Below are positions 3,913 to 54,978 of a stretch of DNA of 64,000 nucleotides, in pieces. The number at the start of each line of letters is the position of its first letter. The first letter of the stretch is position 1. The position numbers were made by a program, and so were the translations under genes. Origin of the DNA: Fimbriimonas ginsengisoli Gsoil 348 (GTDB taxonomy: Bacteria > Armatimonadota > Fimbriimonadia > Fimbriimonadales > Fimbriimonadaceae); contig CAMCVK010000011.1 in assembly GCA_945881865.1 (NCBI GenBank), positions 1 to 64,000 of the forward strand. The letters run 5' to 3'. Below the pieces are notes generated by a model, which saw nothing but the letters and a program-made list of their open reading frames with translations, was not told where the DNA came from and made no database searches.

Positions 3913-6149
3913 TTCAGCCGGTGTTTCTTGCCCCGAATCCGGTGAGAAACGACCTTCCCGTCCTTCCAGGAGACGTCGACGGTTAGCCCGCCGCGGGCGG
4001 GTAATCCCCTCACAGAACCCTCGCTCGCCCATGCGGTGGGCAGAGCCGGCAGAAGGCGAACCTCGCCGTTCGCACTCTGCACCAGCAGCTCGGCGATGCC
4101 CGCCGCCGCACCAAAGTTGCCGTCGATTTGGAACGGCGGATGCGCATCGAACAGGTTCGGATAGGTTCCACCGCCGTTCGAATAGTTGAATCCGCTACCG
4201 CCAACCGGCTCCAGTAGCCGCATCAGCAGCTTGTGGGCCCGGTCGCCGTCGCGGAGCCGCGCCCAGAAACAGACCTTCCAGGCCAGCGACCAGCCGGTGC
4301 CGTCGTCGCCCCGTCGTTCCAGGGTCTTGCGGGCGGCGGCGGCAAGTTCCGGCGTTGTTTCGGGCGAAATTTCGTTGGCCGGATGCAATGCGTAGAGGTG
4401 CGAAACATGCCGGTGTTTTGGCTCGGCTTCGTCGTAGTCTTGCAGCCATTCCATCAACTGGCCATGTTTGCCAATCTGCAGCGGGGCGATCCGCGCCCGT
4501 TCCTCGGCGAGCTTTCCGGCAAAATCTCCATCGACGCCGAGAATCTTCGCGGCGGAGATCACGTTCGAGAAAATCTCTCGCACCAAGCTGCTATCCATCG
4601 ATGGCCCCATGCAGGTGCTGAGTGGACCGGAAACCGGGTCGATGTATTCGTTCTCGGGCGAGTTGCTTGGCGCGGTGACTCGCCAACCATGCGTGGGTTC
4701 CGTGATCAGGGAATCCAAGAAGAATTGCGCCGCGCCCTTCATGACCGGGTAGTCCTCCCGGAGGGCCTTCAGGTCGCCGGTGAATGTGTAGTGATCCCAA
4801 AGGTGGGCGCAGAGCCAGGCTCCGGCAGTACACGTCGAGCCCCAGTTGGCACCTTCGCCGGGCGAAGTGAATCCCCATGGGTTCGAGATGGTGTGCGCCA
4901 CCCAACCGTCGGCATTGTAGTACGCGCTGGCCGTCTTTTGGCCGTTCGGCACTAATCCGGCGATGAACCGCCGCAAAGGCTGGGCGCAATCCGAAAGGCC
5001 GCCGACCTCGGCCAGCCAGTAGTTCATCTGGAGGTTGATGTTGAGGTGGAAGTCGCCGTTCCAGGGGGTTTGAAGAGTGTCCGCCCAGATTCCCTGCAGG
5101 TTCGCGGGCAGCGGGCTATCCGGACGCGAGCTACTGATGAGCAGGTACCGGCCGAAGTTGAAGTAGAGCGCGGCGAGACTTGGGTCGGGCACACCCGTTC
5201 GCTTCTGCTCGATGAGCCGCTCCAGGGTGGGCAGTTGCGAGTGCGGGCCGTTCGGTAGCTTCAGGGTCACCCGACGGAAGAAACGGCGGTAGTCCCGCAT
5301 GTGCGTGGACTTCAGTTCCGCATACGTCTTTGTGACCGCCTCGTCGAGGCGATCCCGGGTGTCCACTGAAGGGTCCTTGCCCTCGAAGGTTGTTCCGGTG
5401 GCAACCAGCACCGTCGCCTCGTTTGCCCCTTGCACCACGATTTCGCCGCGGTCCTGCGAGACGGTGCCGCCCTTGGCGAGAACGCGTAACCGTCCAAAGA
5501 AGCCGACGCCTGGTGCGTCGCCCACCCCCGATTCCAAAGAACCGAAAATGGTGGTGTCGCCGTTTGCCGTGCCAGCCGTCGCCCGCTCCTCCCGGCTAAG
5601 CCGCGCCCGGAACGACACCCTGCCCTTTCGATTCGCGGTGAAACGATACACCGTCACCCCCGCCGGAGCCGAGACGAACGCCTCGCGCCGGCACTTGACT
5701 CCGTCTTGTACGTAGCTCACGGTGGTCACGGCTTCGTCTAGGTTCAAAACCCGGCGATAGTCGGTGAAATCTCCGCCCGACGACGAGATATGCAGATCAC
5801 CGAAGGTTTGGAACGAGCCAAACGGAACGGACTTCCCGTTCCCAAATCCCGTTCCCGCGCCGGCGCAGATGAAGTTCGACTGGAGCAGGCTTTGCGCCTC
5901 GGCGTTCTTCCCCGCGATTAAAAGGCGTCGGATTTCGGGCAGAACCTTGTAAGCATCCGGTCGATCGGCGTCTTGCGGCGAGCCGGACCACATCGTCGAC
6001 TCGTTGAGTACGACCCGCTCTTCGTTCACCCCGCCAAAGATCATCGCGCCGCTGCGCCCGTTTCCGAGAGGCGACGCCTCGATGAATTTCGTGGCCGGGG
6101 TGGTGGCCCAGATGGCCAGCGGTGGAGGCGGAAGCGGCAAGATCGGCAT
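3909..6149 (-). CDS. Glycoside hydrolase family 95 protein (alpha-L-fucosidase type)
   Basis: The 746-residue protein has the normal length of GH95 enzymes. The N-terminal domain carries [14 protein letters not shown] and LNESTMWSG; the catalytic (alpha/alpha)6 domain contains NLQGIWAD and the H-x-N-x-N-x-QMNYW stretch with the two asparagines that activate water in GH95, then SNSPENEY with the candidate acid Glu and [13 protein letters not shown] with the conserved Asp. The family removes terminal alpha-1,2-L-fucose (or L-galactose) by inversion. I start at the ATG at 6147-6149; a TTG five codons earlier is possible. No clear signal peptide is seen, so the location is uncertain. The 3' end overlaps the convergent prpB gene by 4 bp. 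Confidence 0.9.
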
Positions 6150-6214
6150 GCCCCATTCTATCAAGAACGAATTCTGCGTGGGACAGCCCCAATGGAGTTA
6201 AACTTGGGTCATTC

Positions 6215-7099
6215 ATGCGAAGATTCCCGGCGTTTGCCTTTTGCGTTGCCGCGCTCGTTCTCCCCAGTTTTGCCGTGGCCCAGGAGCGGCTGCGGGACCA
6301 GATTTATCTTAAGGAAGGCGGCGCGGCGTTCACGCTGGATGTTTTCAAGCCGAAGAATCCGAACGGCGGGGCGGTAATTTGGTTTGTCAGCGGCGGCTGG
6401 GTATCACGTCACGACGACATCAATGAAACACTCGCACTCGCGCTGAATCAGACTGGCCTCACCGTTGTGCAGGTCGTTCACGGAAGCCAGCCGAAGTACA
6501 TTATTACCGATATCGTAAAGCAGGTGCGACGCGCGGTGCGTTTCGTTCGGACAAACGCGGCATCGTACGGCATCGATGAGAAGCGAATGGCGGTCTCCGG
6601 CGCGAGTGCGGGCGGGCATCTTTCCCTGATGGTCGCCGGCCTTGGCGACGATGGCAACCCCAACGCGAAGGATCCGGTAGAGAGGGCCAGCAGCCGCTTA
6701 GCGGCGGCAGCGGTTTTCTTCCCTCCAACCGACTTTGTGAACTACGGCGCGAAAGGCAACATGCCGGCCGATGGATCCGACCCGAAGATGGCACCGTTCC
6801 TACCCGCTTTTGGACCCATTAAGGGCTTGCCGCCGGAGCAGCTGAAGGCCAAAGCGGCTGAGCTCTCGCCAATCACCAACGTGAAGAAAGGCTTCCCGGC
6901 GGTGCTGCTGATTCACGGCGACAAGGATAGCCTTGTGCCGCTGCAACAGTCCGAGATCTTTGGCAAAGCCCTCGAAGAGGTGGGTTCCGTACACCAGCTG
7001 ATCGTGATCCCGGGCGGAGGGCACGATCCTTCCACGGTGATTCCCGGACTTCCTCGAATGGTGACGTGGCTCATCCAGCAGATTGGGCGGTCAAAATGA
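6215..7099 (+). CDS. Secreted alpha/beta-hydrolase (esterase/lipase-like)
   Basis: The 294-residue protein begins with a cleavable signal peptide (hydrophobic stretch FAFCVAALVLPSFAVAQ). It has the esterase nucleophile elbow SGASAGGH, the oxyanion-type strand VIWFVSGGWVS, a late catalytic aspartate in LLIHGDKDSLVP and the catalytic histidine in IPGGGHD, so the Ser-Asp-His triad is complete. The fold resembles BD-FAE-type carbohydrate esterases and alpha/beta-hydrolase-3 enzymes. The ATG at 6215 is chosen because it starts the signal peptide. It is divergent from the GH95 gene across a 65 bp gap, so the two may share a control region and act together on polysaccharide; that link is inference. 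Confidence 0.85.
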   Translation: MRRFPAFAFCVAALVLPSFAVAQERLRDQIYLKEGGAAFTLDVFKPKNPNGGAVIWFVSGGWVSRHDDINETLALALNQTGLTVVQVVHGSQPKYIITDIVKQVRRAVRFVRTNAASYGIDEKRMAVSGASAGGHLSLMVAGLGDDGNPNAKDPVERASSRLAAAAVFFPPTDFVNYGAKGNMPADGSDPKMAPFLPAFGPIKGLPPEQLKAKAAELSPITNVKKGFPAVLLIHGDKDSLVPLQQSEIFGKALEEVGSVHQLIVIPGGGHDPSTVIPGLPRMVTWLIQQIGRSK

Positions 7100-7163
7100 A
7101 CCGCCTAGCCGACCCGATTTTTCCGGTGGTAGAATCCACCGACGTGGTCAACGAGGAAAACGC

Positions 7164-8312
7164 ATGAGCTCAAGCCCGGTTTCATATCCATACAGTCCTG
7201 GTCTTGAAGGCGTTCCTGCCGGTATCAGCAAGATCAGCGAAATCGATAGCGATCGTAGCAGCCTTCAGTATCGCGGCTACGACGTCCACGATTTGGCCGA
7301 GCACGGCTCCTTCGAAGAAACGGCTTACCTGCTGATCCACGAAAAGCTGCCGAATGCGACCGAGTTGGCCGACTTTCGTTCTCTGCTTGGTGCCGAGCGA
7401 CAGGTTCCCGACGCGGTCTACTCCGCCATCGCCGCCATGCCGAAGGATGCGCACCCGATGGACAGCATCCGAACCGCTTTCTCGGTTCTGGCCGCATTCG
7501 ACCCCGACTACCGCGCGCCGAGCACCGATCACGAGGCGAACCTCCGCAAAGCCGTTCGCATCGTGGCCAAGGCGGGCACGATGGTGGCAAACGGCCACCG
7601 GATCCGCCAGGGCCTCGACCCGATTGCTCCGGACCCGGCACACTCGACCGCCGAGAACTTGCTGCACCTCATGACCGGTTCCGCACCCGTGGCAAAGACG
7701 GTGCAGGTGATGGACGCAAGCCTTACGCTTTACGCCGAGCACGGATTCAACGCCAGCACGTTCGCAAACCGAGTTTGCGTCGCGACCCTAAGCGACCTGT
7801 ATAGCGGAGTAGTTACCGGCATTTCGACCCTTCGCGGCCCGCTTCATGGCGGCGCGAATGAGGAGGCCATGCGCATGATCCTGGAGATCGGCGAGCCCGA
7901 GAATGCACAAGCATGGATCGATGACGCCCTTCTGCACAAGAAGAAAATCATGGGATTTGGCCATCGCGAATACAAGAAGAGCGACAGCCGCGCCATGTAC
8001 ATGTCGAAGGTCGCCAAGGAGCTTGGCATCGAAAGCGGGCATACGAAGTTTGGCGATATTGCCGAGATCCTGGAAACCACGATGCTGGAGCGGAAGAACA
8101 TCCACCCGAACGTGGACTTCCCGGCCGCCTACGCTTACTACTTGCTGGGCATTCCCATCGACCTCTACACGCCGATCTTCGTGGTCGCGCGGGTTGCAGG
8201 CTATACGGCGCATGCGATCGAGCAGCTGCAGAACAACCGCCTCATTCGGCCGAAGGCCATCTACGACGGCGACGCGAATCTGACCTACGTTCCGCTCACC
8301 GAGCGACCGTAA
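7164..8312 (+). CDS. Citrate synthase / 2-methylcitrate synthase
   Basis: The 382-residue protein is a short bacterial-type citrate synthase. Key regions are SLQYRGYDVHDLAEH, the active-site histidine block LRGPLHGGANEEA, GFGHREYKKSDSRA and the catalytic Asp in NVDFPAAYAYYLLG. It condenses oxaloacetate with acetyl-CoA or propionyl-CoA. The presence of a methylisocitrate lyase 3.2 kb away favours the methylcitrate activity, but sequence alone does not separate the two. The ATG at 7164 is preceded by GAGG about 8 bases upstream. Its stop directly abuts the stop of the convergent CAP-domain gene with no spacer. Confidence 0.92.
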   Translation: MSSSPVSYPYSPGLEGVPAGISKISEIDSDRSSLQYRGYDVHDLAEHGSFEETAYLLIHEKLPNATELADFRSLLGAERQVPDAVYSAIAAMPKDAHPMDSIRTAFSVLAAFDPDYRAPSTDHEANLRKAVRIVAKAGTMVANGHRIRQGLDPIAPDPAHSTAENLLHLMTGSAPVAKTVQVMDASLTLYAEHGFNASTFANRVCVATLSDLYSGVVTGISTLRGPLHGGANEEAMRMILEIGEPENAQAWIDDALLHKKKIMGFGHREYKKSDSRAMYMSKVAKELGIESGHTKFGDIAEILETTMLERKNIHPNVDFPAAYAYYLLGIPIDLYTPIFVVARVAGYTAHAIEQLQNNRLIRPKAIYDGDANLTYVPLTERP

Positions 8313-14000: not shown

Positions 14001-14960
14001 ATGCCAACCAAGACTTACTTTTCGCTGGCGGGGGAGATCATTGCCGAGGAGGCCGGTGGAGTTCGAACGGACTACATCACGGATGCCCTGGGCTCAATCG
14101 TGGGAACGGTGGATTCTAGCCAGGCGGTTATGAACACCTACCGGTACAAGCCGTACGGTGCCTTACTCGCCAAGACCGGAACAGCACCCGATCCACGCTT
14201 TCTCTGGACCGGAAACACGGGTTCACGAACCACTAACCTCAACCGGGCCGAGCAATACAATCAGGCTCGGCACTTGGGAGTCAAGGAAGGCACCTGGACT
14301 AGCGTTGATCCACTCTGGCCGAATGAGTGGGCGTACGGGTATGTGAAGGGGAACCCAACGAATCGGATAGACCCCGACGGATTAATTGCGGCAGTTGGAG
14401 TCAAACATCCACGCTGGGCAGCATGGGGTTGCACGAGCTCTGGCAAATATGGTTCTGCGATCAGGTGGTCCGAGGTCGAAAATAGGTCCGGGTACATCGT
14501 TCAGTCCATAAAAAATTCAATCAGCATGTTGAGATGTCGGTCATCCGATCCTCCTATTGCAGACTCTAAATCGTTTTTTGAGGCTTGGGAAGTGAAGAGA
14601 GGCCTGAACGGTTACCCAGAAATTTATTTGGACAAACAAAGACTGCCGGCATTTGGACCTCATGATACTTGGGAGGGAGGCCGCTTGCAGGATTATCGAG
14701 CGTCGGCCAAAATAAGCGGAACAGTTGTACAAATCGCTGGGACGCCAGATGGCTTCAACGTCTTTAGGCCCGAAGGAGTTTCTATCGCTGCAGATATTCT
14801 CTCCACATATACTTGGAAGGAATGGACAAAGTATTCAGGTAAAGCAAAATTTTTACAAAAATCAACAATGGTTTCCGATTGCTGCAAACGTGGGACGCGG
14901 GGTGTTTTAACGCGAACCCCTACTTTTAAGACCGACAATACGACGATGGATTGCAGGTAA
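14001..14960 (+). CDS. Orphan RHS-repeat tip protein with variable C-terminal domain
   Basis: The 319-residue product begins inside what is normally the end of a giant RHS protein: DYITDALGSIVGTVDSS, YRYKPYGALLAKTG and the conserved core end YGYVKGNPTNRIDPDG (near residues 113-128). About 190 residues of unique, cysteine-containing sequence follow, in the position where polymorphic toxin domains sit. I do not recognise that domain. There is a good ribosome site, AGGAG at 13986-13990, ten bases before the ATG, so the module is probably expressed on its own rather than being debris. The stop is directly followed by the ATG of a lipoprotein gene. In other RHS systems such downstream genes encode immunity proteins. 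Confidence 0.75.
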   Translation: MPTKTYFSLAGEIIAEEAGGVRTDYITDALGSIVGTVDSSQAVMNTYRYKPYGALLAKTGTAPDPRFLWTGNTGSRTTNLNRAEQYNQARHLGVKEGTWTSVDPLWPNEWAYGYVKGNPTNRIDPDGLIAAVGVKHPRWAAWGCTSSGKYGSAIRWSEVENRSGYIVQSIKNSISMLRCRSSDPPIADSKSFFEAWEVKRGLNGYPEIYLDKQRLPAFGPHDTWEGGRLQDYRASAKISGTVVQIAGTPDGFNVFRPEGVSIAADILSTYTWKEWTKYSGKAKFLQKSTMVSDCCKRGTRGVLTRTPTFKTDNTTMDCR

Positions 14961-16984: not shown

Positions 16985-18589
16985 TTAGCGGGAGGCCGCT
17001 TGCGCGGTGACGATGGGGACGTAACCCACCTCGAACCCCTTCGGCGGAGTCACAAGCAACGCAGGATCGAGCGAAACGAGTTTCCCGCGCGTCGGCGGCG
17101 CCATATATTCCTGCTTCGGCTTCCACTTCGCATGGAGCTTCTCAACCAGACGCTGAAGCGCATTTTTCTTTTCCTTACTCCAACGATACTGCTGAAAAGA
17201 AGGCTGATCGACGAACCGATACCAGGAGTACGTCACGATAGAGCCGTCCGCTAATTTCACCTTGAACGGCCCAAGCGACGGGCCAGGTTTCGCCCACGCC
17301 CCAACGGTTGGCGAGGTGTAGGGCGCGCCGACCGGGGCAAGCGAGAACTCCGCAGAGAGCAATTTTGTCTCGGGAGGAACCTCGGAAGCCGGAATGGCTT
17401 GCCGCTTGTCGCCGTCCTGCTTGTAGTACTGAGGGAATTTTCCAGCCTCGGCGGTGCGGTCGCCGAACCACTGAAGACCCCAGACATTCCCTTCAAAAAT
17501 CTTTGTGTCAAAGGCTTTTTCAACGCCCACGATTTGCTTCCCCGCCTGGTCGTAGCGGGTCGTGTTCGTGTTCAATTTGGGCTTGAAGGCACCGGTTGTC
17601 TGGAAGACACCTGAGATATCCCGGCCGCCCGACCGCCAAGATTTGAAATCGTTATAGAGTGCCGTTTTCGAGTAGTAGGTCACGTCCTGAACCAGAATTG
17701 CGCGGCCGTTTTTGTCCACCGGAAACTGAAGATTTGGCAGCTTCGAATAGGTGTTTCCGCGGGCATCTTTGCTGTCGAGTCGCGGAACGGTGTTGATCTC
17801 CATCGCGCCACCGCCCATGATCCCCGGGCGGGCGTCGAGGCCACGGCCATGCAGAAACGGCTCGTTGAACAGCTTGCCAATCTTGCTCCAAGTCTCGGGA
17901 ATGTAGTAGGCAATTGGCCCTTTGAAATTGGCCGAGGAAAGGAAGCACGTCCAACTTTGGTCACCGGTTGGTGGGTCGCCAGCTGTTGCATCGGTGAACG
18001 GGAGCGCCATCCAGGAGTAGCCCAAAAACTCACCGTTCGGCTTGCCTTTGAAAGGAAGGCCATCGGGGGGAATCAGCAGCCGGTTGCTGAGTTGCGCGAT
18101 GCCGAGCTGATTGTCCGGCAAAGCCGTGTTGCTGTAGAAGAACGACCACCCGGGCGAGCCGACTTCGTAGTCGTAGCACTGCGGCGTGGCGTTCATGCTG
18201 AACTTCGGCGGTCCGTACCGAAAGTGGTTCCCGGCCCAATAGCCAAGGCCACCTTCCACCGTCTGGAAAACGGTGTCCCAGGTTGGGCCGCGTTCCTTCC
18301 ACTGGCGCGCCAATGTTCCGACAGGTGCAAGCGGCTTGTCCTTGTTGTCCGAGTTATCGGGCTGAATCCAGGAACTCGGCAGTCCGATCTGGAAACCAGC
18401 AAGCGGCTTGTCGGTGAGAGGCCAAACCGCCGCATAGAATCCCATTCCGGCGGTGAAGTTGCCTTTTGCCGGGAGCGGTTCGTGCCCGAAGCCGATGTAG
18501 CCGTGCAGTCCCTGCCCGTGCGAGGTCACGTCGCCGGGACCTAGGAACGCCAATGACGGCAGCAGAGCGAGGGAAGCGATCAGGTGCAT
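16985..18589 (-). CDS. Secreted protein of unknown function
   Basis: The 534-residue protein has an N-terminal signal peptide (LIASLALLPSLAFLG) and no internal membrane helix. It is rich in aromatic residues, Gly and Pro (for example GLGYWAGNHFRYGPPKF, GYSWMALPFTDA), which suggests an extracytoplasmic beta-rich fold. I recognise no domain and no catalytic motif. The start ATG at 18587-18589 gives the signal peptide. The gene lies 64 bp downstream of the redoxin/cytochrome fusion on the same strand and may be co-transcribed. The following ~250 bp (16737-16984) contain only a short palindrome. Confidence 0.65.
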   Translation of the reverse strand: MHLIASLALLPSLAFLGPGDVTSHGQGLHGYIGFGHEPLPAKGNFTAGMGFYAAVWPLTDKPLAGFQIGLPSSWIQPDNSDNKDKPLAPVGTLARQWKERGPTWDTVFQTVEGGLGYWAGNHFRYGPPKFSMNATPQCYDYEVGSPGWSFFYSNTALPDNQLGIAQLSNRLLIPPDGLPFKGKPNGEFLGYSWMALPFTDATAGDPPTGDQSWTCFLSSANFKGPIAYYIPETWSKIGKLFNEPFLHGRGLDARPGIMGGGAMEINTVPRLDSKDARGNTYSKLPNLQFPVDKNGRAILVQDVTYYSKTALYNDFKSWRSGGRDISGVFQTTGAFKPKLNTNTTRYDQAGKQIVGVEKAFDTKIFEGNVWGLQWFGDRTAEAGKFPQYYKQDGDKRQAIPASEVPPETKLLSAEFSLAPVGAPYTSPTVGAWAKPGPSLGPFKVKLADGSIVTYSWYRFVDQPSFQQYRWSKEKKNALQRLVEKLHAKWKPKQEYMAPPTRGKLVSLDPALLVTPPKGFEVGYVPIVTAQAASR

Positions 18590-42084: not shown

Positions 42085-45000
42085 TTAAGATGCCGGAGGG
42101 GTTCGGATGAAGTCGATGTCGTCCCGGGAAAGTACACCGTCCTGGCGCATTCGTTCAATCATGTTTACAACCTCGACTGGCGGCGGGTTCGCCGTGTTCC
42201 AGGCCGTACGCATCTCATCGAGGAAACGGGGGCGATCGTCCGCTCCGAGAAACTTGAGAGCAGCGATCGTTTGGGCCCTGGCCCAAACAAGCCGAACCTC
42301 CGGTTCCTGCCCATATTCGGCATGCAGCCGTCCGCTCTCGTCCGCGTACCCTCTCGCCTCCACTCCGGTGGTTGCCTTACCCGCCGCGTTCATCAGAGCC
42401 ATGGCCCACTCCAGCCGAACCTCGGGTTCCTGGCCATATTCGGCGTGCATCTGTCCGATCTCGTCCGCGTACCCTTTCGCCTCCACTCCGGTGGATGCTT
42501 TGTGCGCCGCGTTCGTCAGGGCCCTCGCCCACTCCAGCCGAACCTCCGGTTCCTGGCCATAATCGGTATGCAGCTGTCCGATCTCGTCCGCGTACCCCTT
42601 CGCCTCCACTCCGGTGGTTGCATCCACGGTCGCGTTGTAGAGGGCCTTGGCCCACTCCAGCCGAACCTCCGGTTCCGCACCATGTTCGGAATGCAGCTGT
42701 CCGATCTCGTCCGCGTAACCCTTGGCCTCTACTCCGGTGGTTGCTTTCACGGTCGCGTTGTAGAGGGCCTTGGCCCACTCCAGCCAAACTTCCGGTTCCT
42801 GGCCGTACTCGGCATGCAGCTGCCCGATCTCGTCCGCGTAACCCTTGGCCTCTACTCCGGTGGTTGCCTTGACGGTCGCGTTCATCAGGGCCTTGGCCCA
42901 CTCCAGCCGAACCTCCGGTTCCGCACCATTTGCGGCGTGCAGCTGTCCGATCTCGTCCGCGTACCCTTTCGCTTCCACTCCGGCGGTTGCCTTGACGGTC
43001 GCGTTGTTGAGGGCCTTGGCCCATGTAAGCCGAACCTCCGGTTCCTGGCCATATTCGGCATGCAGCCGTCCGATCTCGTCCGCGTAACCTTTCGCCTCCA
43101 CTCCGGCGGTTGCCTTGACGGTCGCGTTCATCAGGGCCTTGGCCCACCGCAGCCGAACCTCCGGTTCCGCACCATGTTCGGAATGCAGTCGTCCGATCTC
43201 GTCCGCGTACCCTTTCGCCTCCACTCCGGTGGTTGCCTTGCCCGCCGCGTTCGTCAGGGCCTCGGCCCACTCCAGCCGAACCTCCGGTTCCGCACCATGT
43301 TCGGCATGCAACTGTCCGATCTCGTCCGCGTACCCTTTCGCTTCCACTCCGGTGGTTGACTTGTACGCCGCGTTCACCAGGGCATGGCCAAGTAACTCGC
43401 GAACCTCCGCTAAGGTTGGATTCTCCGCGGCCAGTTTCCGCAGCTCGCCGAGAGCCGCTGCGCCGGCACCGGCACCGGCACCGGCATTCTCCGTGTAGAA
43501 GGTTAAGGCGTAGAGGGCTTGCGCCTGCAGGATGAGAAGCGATGCATTCGGCACGTCATCGCTTCCCGCCCTGGCCAATGCCTCGAACGCCATGGTCAAA
43601 TCCTGAGTTGTCGTTGCCGCCGCCGTTTGAGCCGCAAAGACCTGGCCGAGGGCTTGTGCACGGACTTCCTCGGGTACGTCGGAGGGCAGAGCTTTGAGGC
43701 CATCTAATCCTTCGTGGGCCGGAAAATTTCGTGCCGCGCGCTGAAGCAGGTCGACCATTCCCGCTTGGCTCTCTTGCCTAAGCCAGAGGCAATCAAGGAT
43801 CTCCTTTGTTTCGTCCGCCTGCCCTTCCGCGCCATCGCAGTCTGCCTTACCGACCAATCTCTCCAAAACGTAAAGCTCGGCAATCGTGTCGGGTTCATGG
43901 GCCGGAAGGATGCCCTCGCGGGAATCAAACCCACCCCCAAGCGAGCCAATCACGTGGCACAGCTTCGGGTTCCTTTTGCTGGGCACGAATTCCTTCAAGC
44001 AAGCGACTCCATCCACCACGCTCGTACGAACTCCACGCAACGCACAGGCAACGGTTGCAAGATTTGCGTGTGGCGTATCCACGTTAGCCGGCATCCAGCG
44101 CTGACTGATCTCATGGTCGAGCACGTATTGGGCCAAGTCCTGAGCCTTCCAGTTCTTTGTATCTTTGCCGGCTTGGACGGCCGAGAGCAAGAATCGCGCA
44201 AAAAGCGGCCGCCCCTTGGGGTCGGCCTCGAGAAGTCGGTCGGCGAGGCCCTCAGCGGACCAACCGGACGGCATTCCGCCCTTCTCGGTAAGTGCGGAAA
44301 AGAGCTCGACCACTCCCGGGCGGGCCATCGTGCCAAGGTCGACATAGGGAAAATCCCCTTCCGCCTGGCCAGTCTCCGGCCTTGGTCTCGGGTCGAACTT
44401 ACCCGGCACCGCCTGGAGACCGGAGTACCAAAGGCCGACGGGGGCGCGCTCTAGCACCAAGAAGCGCAGGCGTCGATTGTTCCGTTTGGCGGCAAGCGCG
44501 CTGAAGGCCATCTGCAAATTTCCCTGCCGCCGCAGCGCGTAATCCACGACCACCAACGTGTCATCGTGAATGATGAATTTGTCCCAGTTTTCGAACTGGG
44601 TTCCGGGGTTGAGGAACCCGGCGTCGAACCCCAAGTCCTGGGCTTGCTGAACCGCCCAAAGGCCGAGACGGCTTTTGCCACTTCCAGCGCCACCAATCAT
44701 CAGCATCCAGGCAACGCCATCATCGCTCTCCAAAAACCGATCGAGGTAACCCTGCTCGGTGGCGCGCCCGACCAGCTCGTTTTCATCACCGGCATAGTAG
44801 TAATCGTTGTTCGCAATGGGCTCGGGAACGTAAAGCGGCACCCGGTCGATTGCTCGGACGGCCGACTCTAAGGACGTCATTCGCGGCTTGATGTAGTCGG
44901 CGAACCAGTTCCAAAACTGCTGATTCGACTTGTCGGTGTGTTCTCTTGTCTTCGCACCTTCTTCTTGGACCAGGTGGTCTACAAGTAGCATCCAATTGTC

Positions 45001-48174: not shown

Positions 48175-48993
48175 CTAATGACCCTGCCAGCAGAATCCGA
48201 CTTTGCTGAAATCACCGCGTCGGGAATCTTCTTCACGCACGAAAAAGTAGAGGATGCCGCCGTCTCCCCACTCAAAATGGGCCGCCTCGTCGGAATCGAA
48301 CTGCGCCAGCAGCCGCCACTCGCGCTGCGCCATCTCGATGAACTCTTCGCGCATTTCTTCCTTGCTAGTGACGAGCAAACCTTCACTTCGTCTTCGCCTG
48401 CCCTCGCACAACGCTTCCATTTCATCCCCCTGGATCGAATCCGGAAATCCTCCGACCTGGTGGCGGGGAAGATCCCGGTACGCCTTCACAGAAAGCTCGA
48501 TGAATTCCTCCGAGGTCACATCATCCATCTTAAGGGATTTGATTTCTTCTCGCTCCCACGGCGTAACGGATACGATCCGGGTCATCTTGACCGGAAGCTT
48601 TCCCGCCGCATGCGCAAAGAGAGCCTCGACCTCCCCAACCGGAAAATCTGAGCCCGATTTTGGAGAGGGGACGTGAATGACCGACGATGACTCTAGGGCA
48701 TCTTCGTCTAGATCCTCGTCGACGAAGAACAGCAGCCTGCCGTCCTTCGGCAACCAATCCATCGGAACACATGCCTGCACCTCGGCCAAGTCAATCGAGG
48801 CGAGAAGGAACAGCGGATTCCCGTCTCGCGTGGGCCAGGCGATCCCAGGCGGAAGCTCTGGCCGACCAGCAAGGTACGAACGCACGGCTTCCTTGGTCGC
48901 AACGAGGTGGACAGCCGGTTGCGCAAAAGTAAGGGCTTTCTCAAGGAGCTCTTGATCAGGCTTGGGCTTGGGCTTCTTCTTCCACCAGGACAT
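48175..48993 (-). CDS. DUF1963 (YwqG-like) protein
   Basis: The 272-residue soluble protein shows DUF1963 features: GRPELPPGIAWPTRDGNPL followed by FLASIDLAEVQ, the segment GRLLFFVDED and, near the end, FDSDEAAHFEWGDGGILYFF. The function of the family is unknown; it is frequent near polymorphic toxin and contact-dependent systems. The start ATG at 48991-48993 begins a Lys/Pro-rich leader directly before the domain; longer in-frame versions run into the direct repeat at 49076-49107 and are not convincing. Confidence 0.8.
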   Translation of the reverse strand: MSWWKKKPKPKPDQELLEKALTFAQPAVHLVATKEAVRSYLAGRPELPPGIAWPTRDGNPLFLLASIDLAEVQACVPMDWLPKDGRLLFFVDEDLDEDALESSSVIHVPSPKSGSDFPVGEVEALFAHAAGKLPVKMTRIVSVTPWEREEIKSLKMDDVTSEEFIELSVKAYRDLPRHQVGGFPDSIQGDEMEALCEGRRRRSEGLLVTSKEEMREEFIEMAQREWRLLAQFDSDEAAHFEWGDGGILYFFVREEDSRRGDFSKVGFCWQGH

Positions 48994-49075: not shown

Positions 49076-49107
49076 TCAGACCCCGACTTGCGTGACGCGG
49101 CCGCCAC
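49076..49107. repeat. Left 32 bp direct repeat flanking kinase/PP2C/VWA triad
   Basis: These 32 bases are identical to 52804-52835 (they begin TCAGACCCCGACTTGCGTGA). The identity stops sharply at both ends. The other copy is the 3' end of an intact SDR gene; this copy is detached from any gene. It looks like one side of an attachment-site-like duplication. Confidence 0.93.
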
Positions 49108-49194
49108 GCCACAGCGAACTTCGAGTCTCTATTGGCGTCACGACCCGGTCAGAAAACTCCTGCCCGATCACGAATCTTAGTAACACAAAGTAAA

Positions 49195-51153
49195 TTAAAG
49201 GCAGCGCATGTCCGCGTCAGCTTGTGCGAGCCGCCTCACTGCGTCGTGAGCAGCTGGCAGCAGTGCGCTTGCCGAGCTCTCGATACTGCTGGAAATTTGC
49301 CTAAGACGATCAGCACCAGAAAGGAGATCACGGACAAGACCGCCACGAAGAGCCTCAATGTCGGCATCGAGCTTTTGGAGGTCCCGTGGGTCAGTTCCGG
49401 CAGATGGATCAAATGCAAACTTGCTCAAGACGGAGCGTTTCCAATCGAGAAGTTTATCCGTGAGGAAGACGCCAAAACCCGGTACGTTTAGAACGGACTG
49501 GCTAGTGATATCCGCTGCAGTTTCGATGCCGTAATAGCCAAGTGTGCCACAACGTTCATAACCGATCCCCGTAATAACCCCTGGAAGGATCCGAAATGTC
49601 TCGAGGAACCGCGTTAGCTGCCGTTCATGCAGAGCCGCTTCTAGCGCGTCAAATTCTCGCTGGCGCCGAGCGTCGATATCTTCGTAGTCCCTCTTCTTCT
49701 TGTTGAGATCAGCTAGGGTCGCTTCGAAGACATCGAGGGACGCAGTCGACTGCCACCGGCTTCTGAGGGAATCAAACTCGGCCTTGGCCGACCTGAAGGA
49801 CGCTTCTGCATCAGCCTTAGCTACAACCAATCCCGCCGCTCCCTGCTGAGATATTAGAAGCCACGCTAGCCATGCGAAGAAAAGCCCGGGACAAATGAAT
49901 GACGGGTCGATAAAAACAGAGCTCGCGACCAACAGCCCCACGATCACACCACTCGCTGCAAACCCTCTTCTGCGGTTCCCAATTGTTCTGTACGTGGAAG
50001 CTGGCATGGCAACTGGAAGAGGGGAGTATGTTGGAAATGGTGGTGGTGAGGGCGGTGCCACCCGGACGATGGTTGCCCAGACTTTGGTGAGGTCAAATGC
50101 ACTTCGGCTCGCACGAATCCCCAGCCCTACCCCGAACAGCGAAATTCCAACGCTTTGTTCGATCGCACACCACGGGCACGATGCGCTGTTATCATGATAG
50201 TAGTGACTCTCAATATAGGAGCACTGGCGGAGATTCAGCAGCAAGTCCGAAAGCGCCGACGCCCACTCTAGTGCCGTCGGCCTGATTGTCCTACCTGCTT
50301 CCAAGAATGCTCCTTCAAACATAGAAGCAATTTTCGGCGACATTGCGTCCAACGATATTGTGTGGGGGGGTTGCTTCATCTGTCGTGCCGTCGCACCGGG
50401 GCCGTAGGCGAACATGTGACTGGCAATTTTTCGCTCAATCGCAACCTCTCCTGGCACCAACGCAGCTCCGGCAAATGGGTGGCGCCCCATCGCCATTAAT
50501 TCGAATATCAGAACAGCAAGTCCAAAGTTATCGTGATTTGGGGTTCGTAATTTGCCCTCCAAACCCTTTCCCTGAAGTTCGGGCGGCGTGTGGAGGGGTT
50601 CCGCAACTACACATTCGAATGTCTGACCTTGAAGACTTATCTGAAAGCTATCGCAGTCGATTAGTCTTACCGTGGTGTCGCCCGCCACCATCACACTAGA
50701 GTGATTCACGTCCCCAATTACGTGGCCATTTTTGTGGACAACAGCAAAGGCGCGGGCGATATTTGCTCCAGTATTTATCAGAAAACGCCAGTCAGCGTTA
50801 TCGAACTCGGCTAATCGCGACTTCGGGTTATACAGTTTGTGCAGCTCTTTGTGTTTATCCGCGTTCCGCATCACAAAGCCCTTTACTCCACCACTTGAGT
50901 GCTCAGATAAGAGTTGAAGCGGCCAGCAAGTCAGTTGTTCGAGGTCGGCGGAGGAACAAGCCACCATCAGCCGCAGCTTCTTGCTACGATCAGAATTAGG
51001 CTCTTGGTGATATATTTTTGCAACGATATCATCGCTGCCCTTTATTTTGAAAACCGTCCCTTCTCCTCCTTGGGCAATCCGTTCACCTAGAACGACTTTT
51101 CTTCCCTGAGAATCAAGAAACACTGGCACCGCGTCAATAGGCCCCGTTAACAC
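49195..51153 (-). CDS. YegI-like protein kinase with zinc finger, TM helices and helix-hairpin-helix
   Basis: The 652-residue protein combines an atypical kinase domain (residues about 20-300) with the pair C-P-W-C (326-329), two hydrophobic segments near 400-440, a coiled coil (about 445-540) and a helix-hairpin-helix motif (VPGFGVFLTDKLLDW, near 575). In the kinase, the loop AQGGEGTVF and Lys46 are present, but HRD is replaced by HVIGDVNHS (Asp148, Asn150) and DFG by DCDSF (Asp166). This is the COG4248/YegI arrangement, known from TerY-phosphorylation triads. GTG at 51151-51153 lies 20 bp inside the PP2C gene. It is the last gene of the triad. Confidence 0.88.
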   Translation of the reverse strand: MLTGPIDAVPVFLDSQGRKVVLGERIAQGGEGTVFKIKGSDDIVAKIYHQEPNSDRSKKLRLMVACSSADLEQLTCWPLQLLSEHSSGGVKGFVMRNADKHKELHKLYNPKSRLAEFDNADWRFLINTGANIARAFAVVHKNGHVIGDVNHSSVMVAGDTTVRLIDCDSFQISLQGQTFECVVAEPLHTPPELQGKGLEGKLRTPNHDNFGLAVLIFELMAMGRHPFAGAALVPGEVAIERKIASHMFAYGPGATARQMKQPPHTISLDAMSPKIASMFEGAFLEAGRTIRPTALEWASALSDLLLNLRQCSYIESHYYHDNSASCPWCAIEQSVGISLFGVGLGIRASRSAFDLTKVWATIVRVAPPSPPPFPTYSPLPVAMPASTYRTIGNRRRGFAASGVIVGLLVASSVFIDPSFICPGLFFAWLAWLLISQQGAAGLVVAKADAEASFRSAKAEFDSLRSRWQSTASLDVFEATLADLNKKKRDYEDIDARRQREFDALEAALHERQLTRFLETFRILPGVITGIGYERCGTLGYYGIETAADITSQSVLNVPGFGVFLTDKLLDWKRSVLSKFAFDPSAGTDPRDLQKLDADIEALRGGLVRDLLSGADRLRQISSSIESSASALLPAAHDAVRRLAQADADMRCL

Positions 51154-51943
51154 GCGTCGCCATCACGAGCGTTTTATCGTCGTCCGTTCGTTCCTGTACT
51201 TGATCTGAATTGAGGAATGAAATCAGTTCTTCGCATAGTCTCTCCGAAACACCAACTTCTTCATTTCGCAATGGATTAAAGAAGGTTCGGAAAAATGGGG
51301 AATGCGCGGACTTTGAGGCGATATGAAGCGCAATCCGCTGAAGTCCATCAGTTAAAATGGCCACCTCGTTGACACTGCTGGCTGATTTACTCGTTTGCAG
51401 ATGATCTTCTGCGTCGTCGTCAGAAACGAAATACGTCATGTTTGCATACTCCGCTTCCTCTGGCCACATGACAGGATCATACTCATCTGGTTGCTCAGGA
51501 CACGAAACAACTATTGCACCATCGCCAATTTGCATGAACATCGACGCAGACTCTCCGAGGATTGCCCCCAGGAAAGTACACGCATATTCCCTCGCAGTTC
51601 CGCCGGCGGCTGCAGCTCTATTTCGGATTGCTTCTCTTGCTTGTATTATCCATTTTCGGCACTCTGCCTTTTCGATATCACCCGCATTAGCACCCTGCAA
51701 TACTAGTGATTTAAAGTGATTCTCAAAACTCTCGCACACCAGTTGCGCAGCTTCATGGGATCGATTCGCTGTTCCAGCACCGTCTGCTGCAAAGAGCAGG
51801 ACCACGGTGTCGTTAGGCCCTAAGACAAGGTTGTGCCCACAAAAATCTTGACACCGAGTTCCGCTATGGACGTGCGCCGAACCAATCACACTTGCCTGGC
51901 AAACTCGCCACGCGGATGCTTCAGCCAACGGTTCCCCAACCAT
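51134..51943 (-). CDS. PP2C-type protein phosphatase (YegK-like)
   Basis: The 269-residue protein has PP2C motifs: SVIGSAHVHSGTRCQD, LFAADGAGTANRSHEAAQL (metal-binding Asp-Gly), QIGDGAIVV, VAILTDGLQRIAL and DDKTLVMA at the end. It would remove phosphates placed by the neighbouring kinase. The ATG at 51941-51943 lies 23 bp inside the upstream VWA gene, and the 3' end overlaps the kinase gene by 20 bp, so all three proteins are made from one message. A longer in-frame start at 52075 would overlap the VWA gene much more and lacks conserved residues. Confidence 0.88.
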   Translation of the reverse strand: MVGEPLAEASAWRVCQASVIGSAHVHSGTRCQDFCGHNLVLGPNDTVVLLFAADGAGTANRSHEAAQLVCESFENHFKSLVLQGANAGDIEKAECRKWIIQAREAIRNRAAAAGGTAREYACTFLGAILGESASMFMQIGDGAIVVSCPEQPDEYDPVMWPEEAEYANMTYFVSDDDAEDHLQTSKSASSVNEVAILTDGLQRIALHIASKSAHSPFFRTFFNPLRNEEVGVSERLCEELISFLNSDQVQERTDDDKTLVMATRVNGAY

Positions 51944-52619
51944 TCGGTTCGGTCGGGTTTGCCAATTTGATCTGGTCTCCAACTTGGCTGTGGGACACCG
52001 TTCTAAGCGAACTGGAAAGCCAGCTAAAAAGATCTTTAAAGCGCAACCCCGACAAGCGTATCGGCTCTCGGACACTCAATTTTCTGAGGACGTCGAAGTT
52101 TGCGCCATCCACCCCGACGGCAAAAAACTGAAACTGCTTCGTCGATTCGCCCTGCTTTATTTCGTCGGCGGCGAGTTGCCATTTGTCGGTTGGCCCACCA
52201 TCAGTCAACAGGAAGACCCAGGGGCGGTAATATTCCACCCCATTTTCTCTGTACGAACTTTTTCGCGCTCGAAGCAATTCGAGCGCTCGCTCGATAGCCG
52301 AACCCAGCGGGGTTTCACCGGAAGCTGATAAGACGGGCGGACTAAACAGATCAGGAGTCTCAAATTCTGCGACAACTTCAACGGGGCCGAATGTTACTAT
52401 GGCAACTTCAACTCGTTTTGCAGCGAGAGGGTCAGCCATGAGTTCCATAAAGAATAACTTCAATCCAGCGTTCAACTCAGCGATTGGGCGCCCCTGCATA
52501 GACCAGCTGGTGTCAAGGAGCAATAGGCACGGACAGCGTGGCTCCGGGTTTTCTGCGAAGATCGCCGCGTCATAGCGCATAATTTTCGTGAACGGCACCT
52601 GCTGATACGGATCTGTCAT
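51921..52619 (-). CDS. VWA-domain protein, TerY/YegL-like
   Basis: The 232-residue protein is essentially one VWA domain. The MIDAS is complete: DTSWSMQG (Asp36, Ser38, Ser40), Thr in SGETPLGSAIERAL and Asp in LLTDGGPTDKW. The N-terminus (QQVPFTKIMRYD) is short and there is no signal peptide. TerY/YegL proteins are the substrates or adaptors of the linked kinase and phosphatase. The ATG at 52617-52619 is the first gene start of the triad, and its 3' end overlaps the PP2C gene by 23 bp. The 184 bp upstream, up to the right direct repeat, probably hold the promoter. Confidence 0.9.
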   Translation of the reverse strand: MTDPYQQVPFTKIMRYDAAIFAENPEPRCPCLLLLDTSWSMQGRPIAELNAGLKLFFMELMADPLAAKRVEVAIVTFGPVEVVAEFETPDLFSPPVLSASGETPLGSAIERALELLRARKSSYRENGVEYYRPWVFLLTDGGPTDKWQLAADEIKQGESTKQFQFFAVGVDGANFDVLRKLSVREPIRLSGLRFKDLFSWLSSSLRTVSHSQVGDQIKLANPTEPNGWGTVG

Positions 52620-52803
52620 CGTTACCCTCGAAACCTGATCTGCGACACCGTCCCAGTTTACGCGAACTCACCTTTTTGGCAACCGATCCCCAAAAGTCCT
52701 CCGGCTTTTCCGATAAAAGAATCCGGTGGTTGAGAGACACGGCAACGTAACACCGCCAAGCTTGCCGTCGCGCACTTCAGTCTCGCGAAAGAACGCGGTG
52801 GTC

Positions 52804-52835
52804 TCAGACCCCGACTTGCGTGACGCGGCCGCCAC
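52804..52835. repeat. Right 32 bp direct repeat (3' end of SDR gene)
   Basis: This is identical to 49076-49107 and comprises the last ten codons and the stop of the SDR gene plus no spacer. The gene therefore stays intact next to the island, the usual outcome when insertion occurs at a gene's 3' end. Confidence 0.93.
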
Positions 52836-53559
52836 AGACCGGAAGGTACGTCCCCGTGCAGTAGGTGGCCAAGTCGCTCAGGTAGAACGCGCAGACGTTC
52901 CCGATTTCCTCCGCCGAGCCGTGCCGGCGGAGCGGCAGCGATGCCGCGAAGCCCTTCGAGCCATCCCCTTCGGTGTCCACCGTTTCGGTCGCCATCCAGC
53001 CCGGCGCAACCATGTTGATGCGGATGTTCTCCGGACCAAGCTCGGCGGCAAGCGACCGCGAAATCCCCACCATCGCGCCCTTCCCCGCCAAATACATCGA
53101 CCAGTCGCCCGAACCGAGGTTCCAAAGTTCCGTCACGATGTTCACGACCGAACCACCCCCGGCGGCCGCCATCATCGGGCGCGCCGCCCGAATCGTGTTC
53201 ACGACCGCCTTCGCCCCAAAGTCGAGCATGTTCTGGTAGCCGTCCCAGTCGGAACCGGCCAGCGACCCATGCTGAGCCCCGCCGATGGCGTTGTTCACCA
53301 GGCCATCCAACCGACCAAATCGAGCGACGACGGCCGCAACCATTTCCTCAACCTGTGCCGCATCGCGAACGTCGCCGCCAACCGCGATGGCTTCCCCACC
53401 GGCGGCTACCAGCTCGGCAACCACCGCCTCGGCGCGCTCGCGTCCGCTTGCATAATTCACCGCAACCGATGCACCGTGCCGCGAGAGCACCCGCGCGATC
53501 GAGCTGCCGATTCCTTTCGAAGCCCCGGTAACCAACGCTACTTTGCCGGCAAGCAACAT
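52804..53559 (-). CDS. SDR-family oxidoreductase (FabG-like)
   Basis: The 251-residue protein has all classical SDR motifs: TGASKGIG for cofactor, NNAIGG, the catalytic Ser-type region NIVTELWNL and YLAGK (YxxxK dyad), and VAPGWMATET. Ser is replaced by Thr in the VTE position, which may be tolerated. It could act on sugars or sugar acids, given its coupling with a Gfo/Idh/MocA gene. The ATG at 53557-53559 shares one base with the stop of that upstream gene. Its last 32 bases are duplicated at 49076-49107. Confidence 0.9.
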   Translation of the reverse strand: MLLAGKVALVTGASKGIGSSIARVLSRHGASVAVNYASGRERAEAVVAELVAAGGEAIAVGGDVRDAAQVEEMVAAVVARFGRLDGLVNNAIGGAQHGSLAGSDWDGYQNMLDFGAKAVVNTIRAARPMMAAAGGGSVVNIVTELWNLGSGDWSMYLAGKGAMVGISRSLAAELGPENIRINMVAPGWMATETVDTEGDGSKGFAASLPLRRHGSAEEIGNVCAFYLSDLATYCTGTYLPVCGGRVTQVGV

Positions 53560-54674
53560 CAATCCACCGCCTCAAACGTGGTGGTGAGCGTCTGCGCTTG
53601 GCCGGTCTCAGCGGCGCGGTAGCCGCTCTCGAAGATCTCGATAACGTGGCGGGCGTGCTCCGCGGTGCCATAGAGCGGCGTGCCGGTTTGCACGAGGTCG
53701 ATGAGCTGCATGATGTCCTCGTAGACGTGCGTTTCCTCCATGGCAAGGTGCGCGCCGTGGATGTGCCGCCCACGCGAATAAGCGGCGAGGCCGTCATCGT
53801 GACCAGGAAACTGCAACGGCTCGCCGTTCAGTTTCGTACCTTCCAAGGTTCCGCGGCTTCCGTAAAAGTTCGGCTGGCCCCAGCCTGGCTCAACGCGACC
53901 GTGAGCCGCGCCGTAGACGAACGCAAAGACGGAATCGCCAAAATCCAAAAGCAAGAACGAGTTGTCGTCGGCTTCGGTTTGGAACGGCTCGCCCCGAAAC
54001 TCGCGGGTCGGAATCGAAATGCCCGACATCGCCGTGACGCGCTTCGCGGGACCGAGGATTCCGGTGAGGGTGTGCAACCCGTAAACCGTCATGTCATACA
54101 GCGGTCCGCCGCCCGGCTTTTTCCAATACCAAGACGGGTTGACGTTGCTCAGCAGGTCGTTGCCCCCGCGCACGCCCTCGTTCTCGTGATAGTTGCCGAA
54201 TCCAGCGCCCACGACCGCCCACGCGAGTTTGCCGAGGTCGCCATTTTGGATTAGCTTGCGGATGGCCTGGTTCTGTGGCTGGACCATCTGGCCGGGACTT
54301 GCATTGATCTTCACCCCGTGGGCCTTAGCTTCATCGATGAGTTGCGTGGCCTCGGCCGCCGTCACCGACATCGTTTTGTTAAAGTGAACGTGCTTTCCGG
54401 CGCGAATCGCCGCGATTCCCTGCTCGAAGTGCAGGCCAATTGGGGTGCCGAGGGTCACGAGATCCACTTTCGGGTCTGCCAGCAACTCGTCTAAAGAGTC
54501 GTAGCCGCTGTCGACGCTAAACCGGTCGGCTGCTGCCGCCGCACGCCCCGGAACCGCGTCGCAAACTGCGGCCAGATGCACCCGATCTTGAACGTCATCT
54601 AACGACAGGTGGGCCAACGCCGCCCGAATTCCGATACTGCCTGCCCCAACCACACCAACGCCGATTCTTTCCAC
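53559..54674 (-). CDS. Gfo/Idh/MocA-family oxidoreductase
   Basis: The 371-residue protein has the N-terminal NAD(P)-binding Rossmann motif GVVGAGSIGIRAAL and a C-terminal alpha/beta domain with YDMTVYGLHTLTGILG. The usual EKP motif is replaced here by NKTMS (VHFNKTMS), so the Lys is kept while Glu and Pro are lost. Enzymes of this family oxidise or reduce sugars and inositols. I choose GTG at 54672-54674, directly before the Rossmann strand; other in-frame starts lie upstream. It overlaps the SDR gene start by one base, so the two form an operon. Confidence 0.87.
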   Translation of the reverse strand: MERIGVGVVGAGSIGIRAALAHLSLDDVQDRVHLAAVCDAVPGRAAAAADRFSVDSGYDSLDELLADPKVDLVTLGTPIGLHFEQGIAAIRAGKHVHFNKTMSVTAAEATQLIDEAKAHGVKINASPGQMVQPQNQAIRKLIQNGDLGKLAWAVVGAGFGNYHENEGVRGGNDLLSNVNPSWYWKKPGGGPLYDMTVYGLHTLTGILGPAKRVTAMSGISIPTREFRGEPFQTEADDNSFLLLDFGDSVFAFVYGAAHGRVEPGWGQPNFYGSRGTLEGTKLNGEPLQFPGHDDGLAAYSRGRHIHGAHLAMEETHVYEDIMQLIDLVQTGTPLYGTAEHARHVIEIFESGYRAAETGQAQTLTTTFEAVD

Positions 54675-54729
54675 CGCGACAGTGTGCCGGTTGGGCCGGA
54701 ATTTGTCAATTCCGGCACCCGAGAGAGGT

Positions 54730-54978
54730 TTAGTCCACCTTGCGCGCGGCTTGCTCGGCCTGATGTTCGGCTCGCTTTTTCGCCTCGGCGGCATCGTTCC
54801 CCGCCTTCTGCTTCAGCTCTTCCGCACGGTGCTTGGTTTCTTGACCAAACTCCTCGGCCTTGTGCTTGCCTTCCTGAATCTTTTCGTCGGCTTTGCCCAT
54901 GAGGTCAGCGGCAAAATCTTTTGCCTTGTCAGCGAGATCGGCGGCGGCGTGTTTGGCTTTGTCCAGGTTGTTTTCCAT
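54730..54978 (-). CDS. Small LEA-like / coiled-coil protein
   Basis: The 82-residue protein is highly charged and alpha-helical, with repeated Ala-Lys-Asp-rich 11-residue-like patterns (DKAKHAAADLADKAKDFAAD, then EEFGQETKHRAEELKQ). This is typical of LEA- or apolipophorin-like stress proteins that protect membranes or proteins during drying or freezing. The ATG at 54976-54978 is chosen because it begins the repetitive region. No signal peptide is seen. It lies 80 bp downstream of another tiny gene on the same strand. Confidence 0.7.
   Translation of the reverse strand: MENNLDKAKHAAADLADKAKDFAADLMGKADEKIQEGKHKAEEFGQETKHRAEELKQKAGNDAAEAKKRAEHQAEQAARKVD

Follow-up and report, generated by a model that had tools for sequence, protein, structure and literature searches.

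A repeat-bounded YegL/PphC/YegI-like gene triad lacking a recombinase at the 3' end of an SDR gene in an Armatimonadota genome

Introduction

How does a small set of genes come to lie, with no recombinase of its own, between two perfect copies of the 3' end of a chromosomal gene? The question is raised by bases 1-64000 of contig 11 (132,806 bases) of an Armatimonadota metagenome-assembled genome (MAG), probably Fimbriimonadaceae-like, of 3.23 Mb, 98% complete and here coded G000. Within this 64,000-base stretch, hereafter the window, a triad of genes for a VWA protein, a PP2C phosphatase and a Ser/Thr kinase, resembling yegL-pphC(yegK)-yegI of E. coli, is bracketed by a 32-bp direct repeat at the end of an SDR dehydrogenase gene. 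An original prediction, made from the sequence alone, took the triad itself to be the mobile unit, a minimal cassette. We report instead that it is an insertion signature, found with other cargos as well, and not the triad that recurs in G000.

Results

A perfect direct repeat brackets three genes

The repeat, TCAGACCCCGACTTGCGTGACGCGGCCGCCAC, occupies positions 49076-49107 and 52804-52835, with 32/32 identity and a spacing of 3728 bp; immediately outside it identity drops to background (6/24 on one side, 3/24 on the other). Among 60 simulated 64-kb sequences of the same composition, the longest direct repeat arising by chance over the same range of distances measured 18 bp. A pattern search of the whole genome allowing up to three mismatches yielded no further copy of the 32-mer, a 22-mer core likewise occurred only twice, and a 24-bp core was not found in viral contigs. 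Read along the minus strand, this sequence in its right copy is GT-GGC-GGC-CGC-GTC-ACG-CAA-GTC-GGG-GTC-TGA, that is, 2 nucleotides followed by the final nine codons and the stop of the SDR gene (52804-53562, minus strand; Pfam), which is intact because this copy supplies its 3' end. The left copy, on the same strand, is an orphan that precedes the start of a DUF1963 gene (48175-48993, minus strand, with its ATG at 48993) by about 80 bp; we presume that gene to have been the original downstream neighbor of the SDR gene.

Between the copies lie 3696 bp (49108-52803) with a G+C content of 0.525, compared to 0.593 in the left flank and 0.631 in the right, occupied by the three overlapping genes and nothing else; open reading frames (ORFs) and Pfam matches in this interval revealed no recombinase, integrase or transfer gene. 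The original prediction had described a perfect repeat diverging directly outside, an AT-richer interval holding only three overlapping genes and no recombinase, and a repeat copy formed by a gene 3' end, and had proposed a genome search for other copies. Its account of the repeat and interval is confirmed and the search gave only the two known copies, while the gene-end origin is borne out for one copy, as the end and stop of the SDR gene, with nine codons (plus the 2 nucleotides) in place of the ten originally counted.

Relatives carry the SDR gene without the triad

In eight genomes of the same genus the SDR gene is present with its partner, an oxidoreductase gene (OXR; 53559-54794, minus strand, in the window, and paired with SDR in the same-genus genomes examined), and the triad does not adjoin the pair. 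The triad is therefore an apparent lineage-specific insertion, as had been proposed. The two genomes closest by the SDR gene, G013 and G014, contain only weak generic kinase matches elsewhere; other genes come after their SDR gene. Most of the genes that lie left of the triad are missing or located at other places, and in relatives the DUF1963 and HD genes do not adjoin SDR. Overall, gene order is strongly shuffled between G000 and G013/G014, although they belong to the same genus and their orthologues are about 80% identical.

Across the phylum the triad kinase is patchy, being detected in 41 of 291 Armatimonadota genomes, and triads also occur on plasmids. The nearest relatives of the kinase are only 40-45% identical and include an alphaproteobacterial plasmid copy; identities to the triad of a Methylocystis (alphaproteobacterial) plasmid are 62% for the VWA protein, 41% for the phosphatase and 41% for the kinase. 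The absence beside the SDR gene in relatives, the patchiness, the distant closest kin and the plasmid copy fit an acquisition by horizontal gain.

Neither the triad nor the SDR gene end is a recurrent repeat partner

Elsewhere in the phylum, 18 further triad or kinase loci were compared; the longest repeat bracketing the genes within 2 kb was a single 13-mer. With flanks of 9 kb, two 16-mers were added, along with a hairpin-like repeat of 27 bp at a single locus. Among 38 other SDR loci, the downstream DNA (up to 10 kb per locus, and far less at several) contained no second SDR 3' end, save for an isolated 13-mer match in locus L060, and no triad or integrase homologue was present at any of them. 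Repeats of this kind thus do not recur with the triad, nor with the SDR end.

Inserts bounded by unrelated repeats recur in the genome

We scanned 1.26 Mb of G000 (39%, counting the window) for perfect repeats that stand isolated, with divergent sequence on either side, setting aside by inspection any that reflected gene paralogy, repeats within proteins, RHS-type repeats or dispersed hairpins. Two further inserts without a recombinase were found in this sample, with unrelated perfect repeats of 34 and 26 bp.

The first (L207:18092-18484; G000:C4:38092-38484) has 34-bp copies at 18092 and 18451 separated by 325 bp, in which a HicB-like ORF scores slightly below the Pfam cut-off. Its right copy comprises the final nine codons and stop of a YCII gene plus 4 nucleotides, and its left copy provides the remainder of the stop codon in a gene of the beta-lactamase family. 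Before insertion, about 2 bp would have separated the stop codons of two convergent genes, both of which would have been left complete by the duplication; both neighbors are indeed intact, as insertion with duplication predicts. On the gene side, similarity continues past the perfect repeat at 16/24 positions over about 24 bp (the random probability of at least 15/24 being about 4e-4).

The second (L188:14526-16219; G000:C6:44526-46219) has 26-bp copies at 14526 and 16194, starting about 5 nucleotides past the stop of a MarR-family gene, and its repeat diverges sharply on both sides. The 1.6-kb cargo (0.524 G+C) contains a decayed gene with an in-frame TAG and weak resemblance to ClpP-like SDH proteases, and the genes flanking the insert lie on different contigs in G013/G014. 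By eye, the three inserts of G000 share no motif or terminal inverted repeats; a CCAC.GCG..CTT resemblance between the ends of the window cargo was weak and is not trusted. No comparable insert turned up in 0.36 Mb of G013 or 0.44 Mb of G008, samples too small for a claim of lineage specificity. Because unrelated inserts bear similar scars, the insertion process, rather than the triad cassette, is what needs explaining.

The same genome also holds an island with a tyrosine integrase (L184:6074-15180; G000:C4), in which the integrase gene (6074-7324) is directly adjoined by one copy of a 28-bp repeat resembling a tRNA 3' end (copies at 7361 and 15137); ARAGORN identified no intact tRNA at either end. 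Its cargo includes an RND-type efflux system. With an att-like repeat next to its integrase, this island has the look of an intact element. Four tyrosine recombinases were found in G000, of which two were read in detail, neither at the triad site; the integrase search proposed with the original prediction thus succeeded in finding recombinases, but not one cognate to the triad repeat.

Other repeats encountered were of different kinds. In the window, the distances between long perfect repeats at 42311-43352 are 123 bp, or 41 codons, and multiples of this, suggesting a repeat protein or tandem array, and a short hairpin-like dispersed repeat, TGCCCCCTTCCTTTCGCTTGCGAGAGGA, has three copies (26971, 28796 and 35918). 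Elsewhere, at L209:7220-9292 (G000:C5), a 93-bp perfect repeat has copies about 2 kb apart, in surroundings rich in other dispersed repeats.

Properties of the YegL/PphC/YegI-like proteins

The original assignment of the gene set to YegIKL/TerY-P triads stands, on gene order, catalytic residues and identities to E. coli proteins of 57, 37 and 36%. The YegL-like VWA protein (51921-52619, minus strand; 232 residues), 57% identical to YegL, has a complete MIDAS motif (DTSWS, T103, D140). The PphC/YegK-like PP2C phosphatase (51134-52075, minus strand), 37% identical to PphC, keeps D77, D98-G99, G184-D185-G186 and D298-D300, and its true start is probably downstream of the first GTG. The YegI-like Ser/Thr kinase (49195-51153, minus strand; 652 residues), 36% identical to YegI, keeps VAK46, GD148 and ID166-D168; an invariant C311/H317/C326/C329 cluster, zinc-ribbon-like, comes after the kinase domain, followed by a membrane hairpin recognized by reading the sequence and, at the C-terminus, a helix-hairpin-helix (HhH). 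Pfam supported SDR, VWA and PP2C_2 and gave a weak kinase match under its cut-off; the identity of the kinase is settled by homology to E. coli YegI over its full length. All three proteins match PHROG families.

In E. coli, YegI is a membrane-bound kinase and PphC its phosphatase, in the account cited within PMC13232886. That operon shares with the present triad the gene order, the overlaps, the above identities over nearly full length, and the VWA MIDAS, PP2C and kinase residues; it differs in its setting, standing between mdtAB and yegD in its sequence record, whereas the genes described here lie between gene-end repeats beside an SDR gene. TerY-P triads are regarded as phosphorylation switches (Anantharaman 2012), with stand-alone anti-phage versions (Gao 2020), according to the passages of PMC11090510 that cite these studies. 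Like ours, they combine VWA, PP2C and Ser/Thr kinase proteins, and in the kinase a zinc-ribbon-like cluster follows the catalytic domain. Our kinase appears to add a membrane hairpin and, in place of an OB-fold, a C-terminal HhH: by alignment its C-terminus reads as HhH like that of YegI, whereas the Gao 2020 type has the kinase fused to a C-terminal OB-fold. No ter or CoCoNuT genes lie between the repeats. PADLOC matched no system model to the triad, returning generic kinase matches only.

Judging from homology, the cargo most likely works as in E. coli, with the PP2C phosphatase holding off the membrane-bound kinase and the MIDAS VWA protein acting as adaptor or sensor; activation of the kinase, possibly with nucleic-acid contact by the HhH domain, would then lead to a stress or anti-phage response. 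By homology, this copy of the triad may be a defence module.

Discussion

The reading that we favor, at a probability of roughly 0.5, is that a foreign 3.7-kb segment integrated once at the SDR 3' end by att-type integration, and that the recombinase is now absent, leaving an islet like a cis-mobilizable element (CIME). The 32-bp copies would be attL and attR of a recombinase not carried on today's element, lost or acting in trans, and a recent integration in the host lineage would have left the perfect duplication and kept the SDR gene intact. The recombinase, a circular intermediate and the direction in which the event ran are inferred.

Precedents exist for such islets. CIMEs contain cargo between attL and attR and no integrase or transfer genes (PMC5704250), as here between attL/attR-like repeats; the present islet, putative and recognized from DNA sequence, differs in having no parent integrative and conjugative or mobilizable element (ICE/IME) and no neighboring element with the same att site. 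Fifteen ssrA islands of Dehalococcoides have no integration module and are cargo-only, bounded by a gene 3'-end repeat (PMC3146451); they share this organization with the triad locus, although a single tmRNA target and a single family of integrases are common to all of them, whereas G000 has three inserts at three unrelated targets. An integrase-bearing island at a gene 3' end would have its recombinase gene inside the repeats, but 49108-52803 contains none; the L184 island, with its integrase, offers a contrast. The original prediction named a cargo-only mobile form of the triad as not known to be described, and a limited literature search did not find this combination. Both the module and repeat-bounded cargo-only islands are known already, and we claim no priority.

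Several observations weigh against a single att-type integration. None of the 38 other SDR loci is occupied. Relatives did provide, as anticipated, SDR genes without the triad, but not a clean empty site with one 32-bp copy: the downstream neighbor differs in every relative examined, since gene order is scrambled. Repeats that are unrelated and of 26, 32 and 34 bp are not what one trans-acting recombinase predicts; a search of the genome yielded no serine recombinase; and the sequence is a MAG that may contain assembly errors.

The strongest competitor, which we regard as possible and clearly less probable, is an illegitimate insertion that duplicates its target: a staggered break or pair of nicks at the gene end would capture a foreign fragment, and fill-in would duplicate 26-34 bp of whatever sequence was present, no site-specific recombinase being involved. 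The predominance of gene 3' ends would then arise only because insertions elsewhere would break genes. Such a process would suit three inserts in 1.26 Mb with unrelated repeats, variable lengths and no recombinase, the sharp divergence on both sides of the triad and MarR sites, and the highly shuffled gene order of these genomes. Ku-dependent non-homologous end joining is rejected, no Ku gene having been found in the genome; the similarity past the YCII-site repeat is of the sort seen at an att site, and the tRNA-like integrase island also favors att-type integration.

We consider it rather unlikely that in this lineage a sequence-tolerant and as yet undescribed process drops small foreign cargos, such as the triad and the HicB-like and ClpP/SDH-like genes, at gene 3' ends, with target duplications of 26-34 bp and no element-borne recombinase. 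Slightly more doubtful still is a rearrangement scar or MAG misjoin, in which the repeat would mark a junction of duplication with rearrangement or an assembly error: synteny is broken at the triad and MarR sites, with DUF1963 and HD not beside SDR in relatives, but the window has no ambiguous bases, the DNA between the repeats is of distinct composition, and there are three independent cases of differing lengths. Least credible is the original proposal of a dedicated minimal mobile cassette repeatedly using gene 3' ends, which gains from a cargo of exactly three genes and from a patchy module found on plasmids and matching PHROG families, and is very improbable given 18 other triad or kinase loci devoid of convincing bracketing repeats and other cargos in the same genome with the same scar.

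Returning to att-type integration as the favored explanation, the locus represents a precisely bounded and apparently recent gain of a YegIKL/TerY-P-like module alone, which fits a triad working without partner genes. The pattern of inserts at the level of the genome is modestly surprising. Of greater interest as a lead is the recurrence in one small genome of recombinase-less inserts with unrelated repeats, since this raises the question of how small, defence-like cargos are loaded without an integrase.

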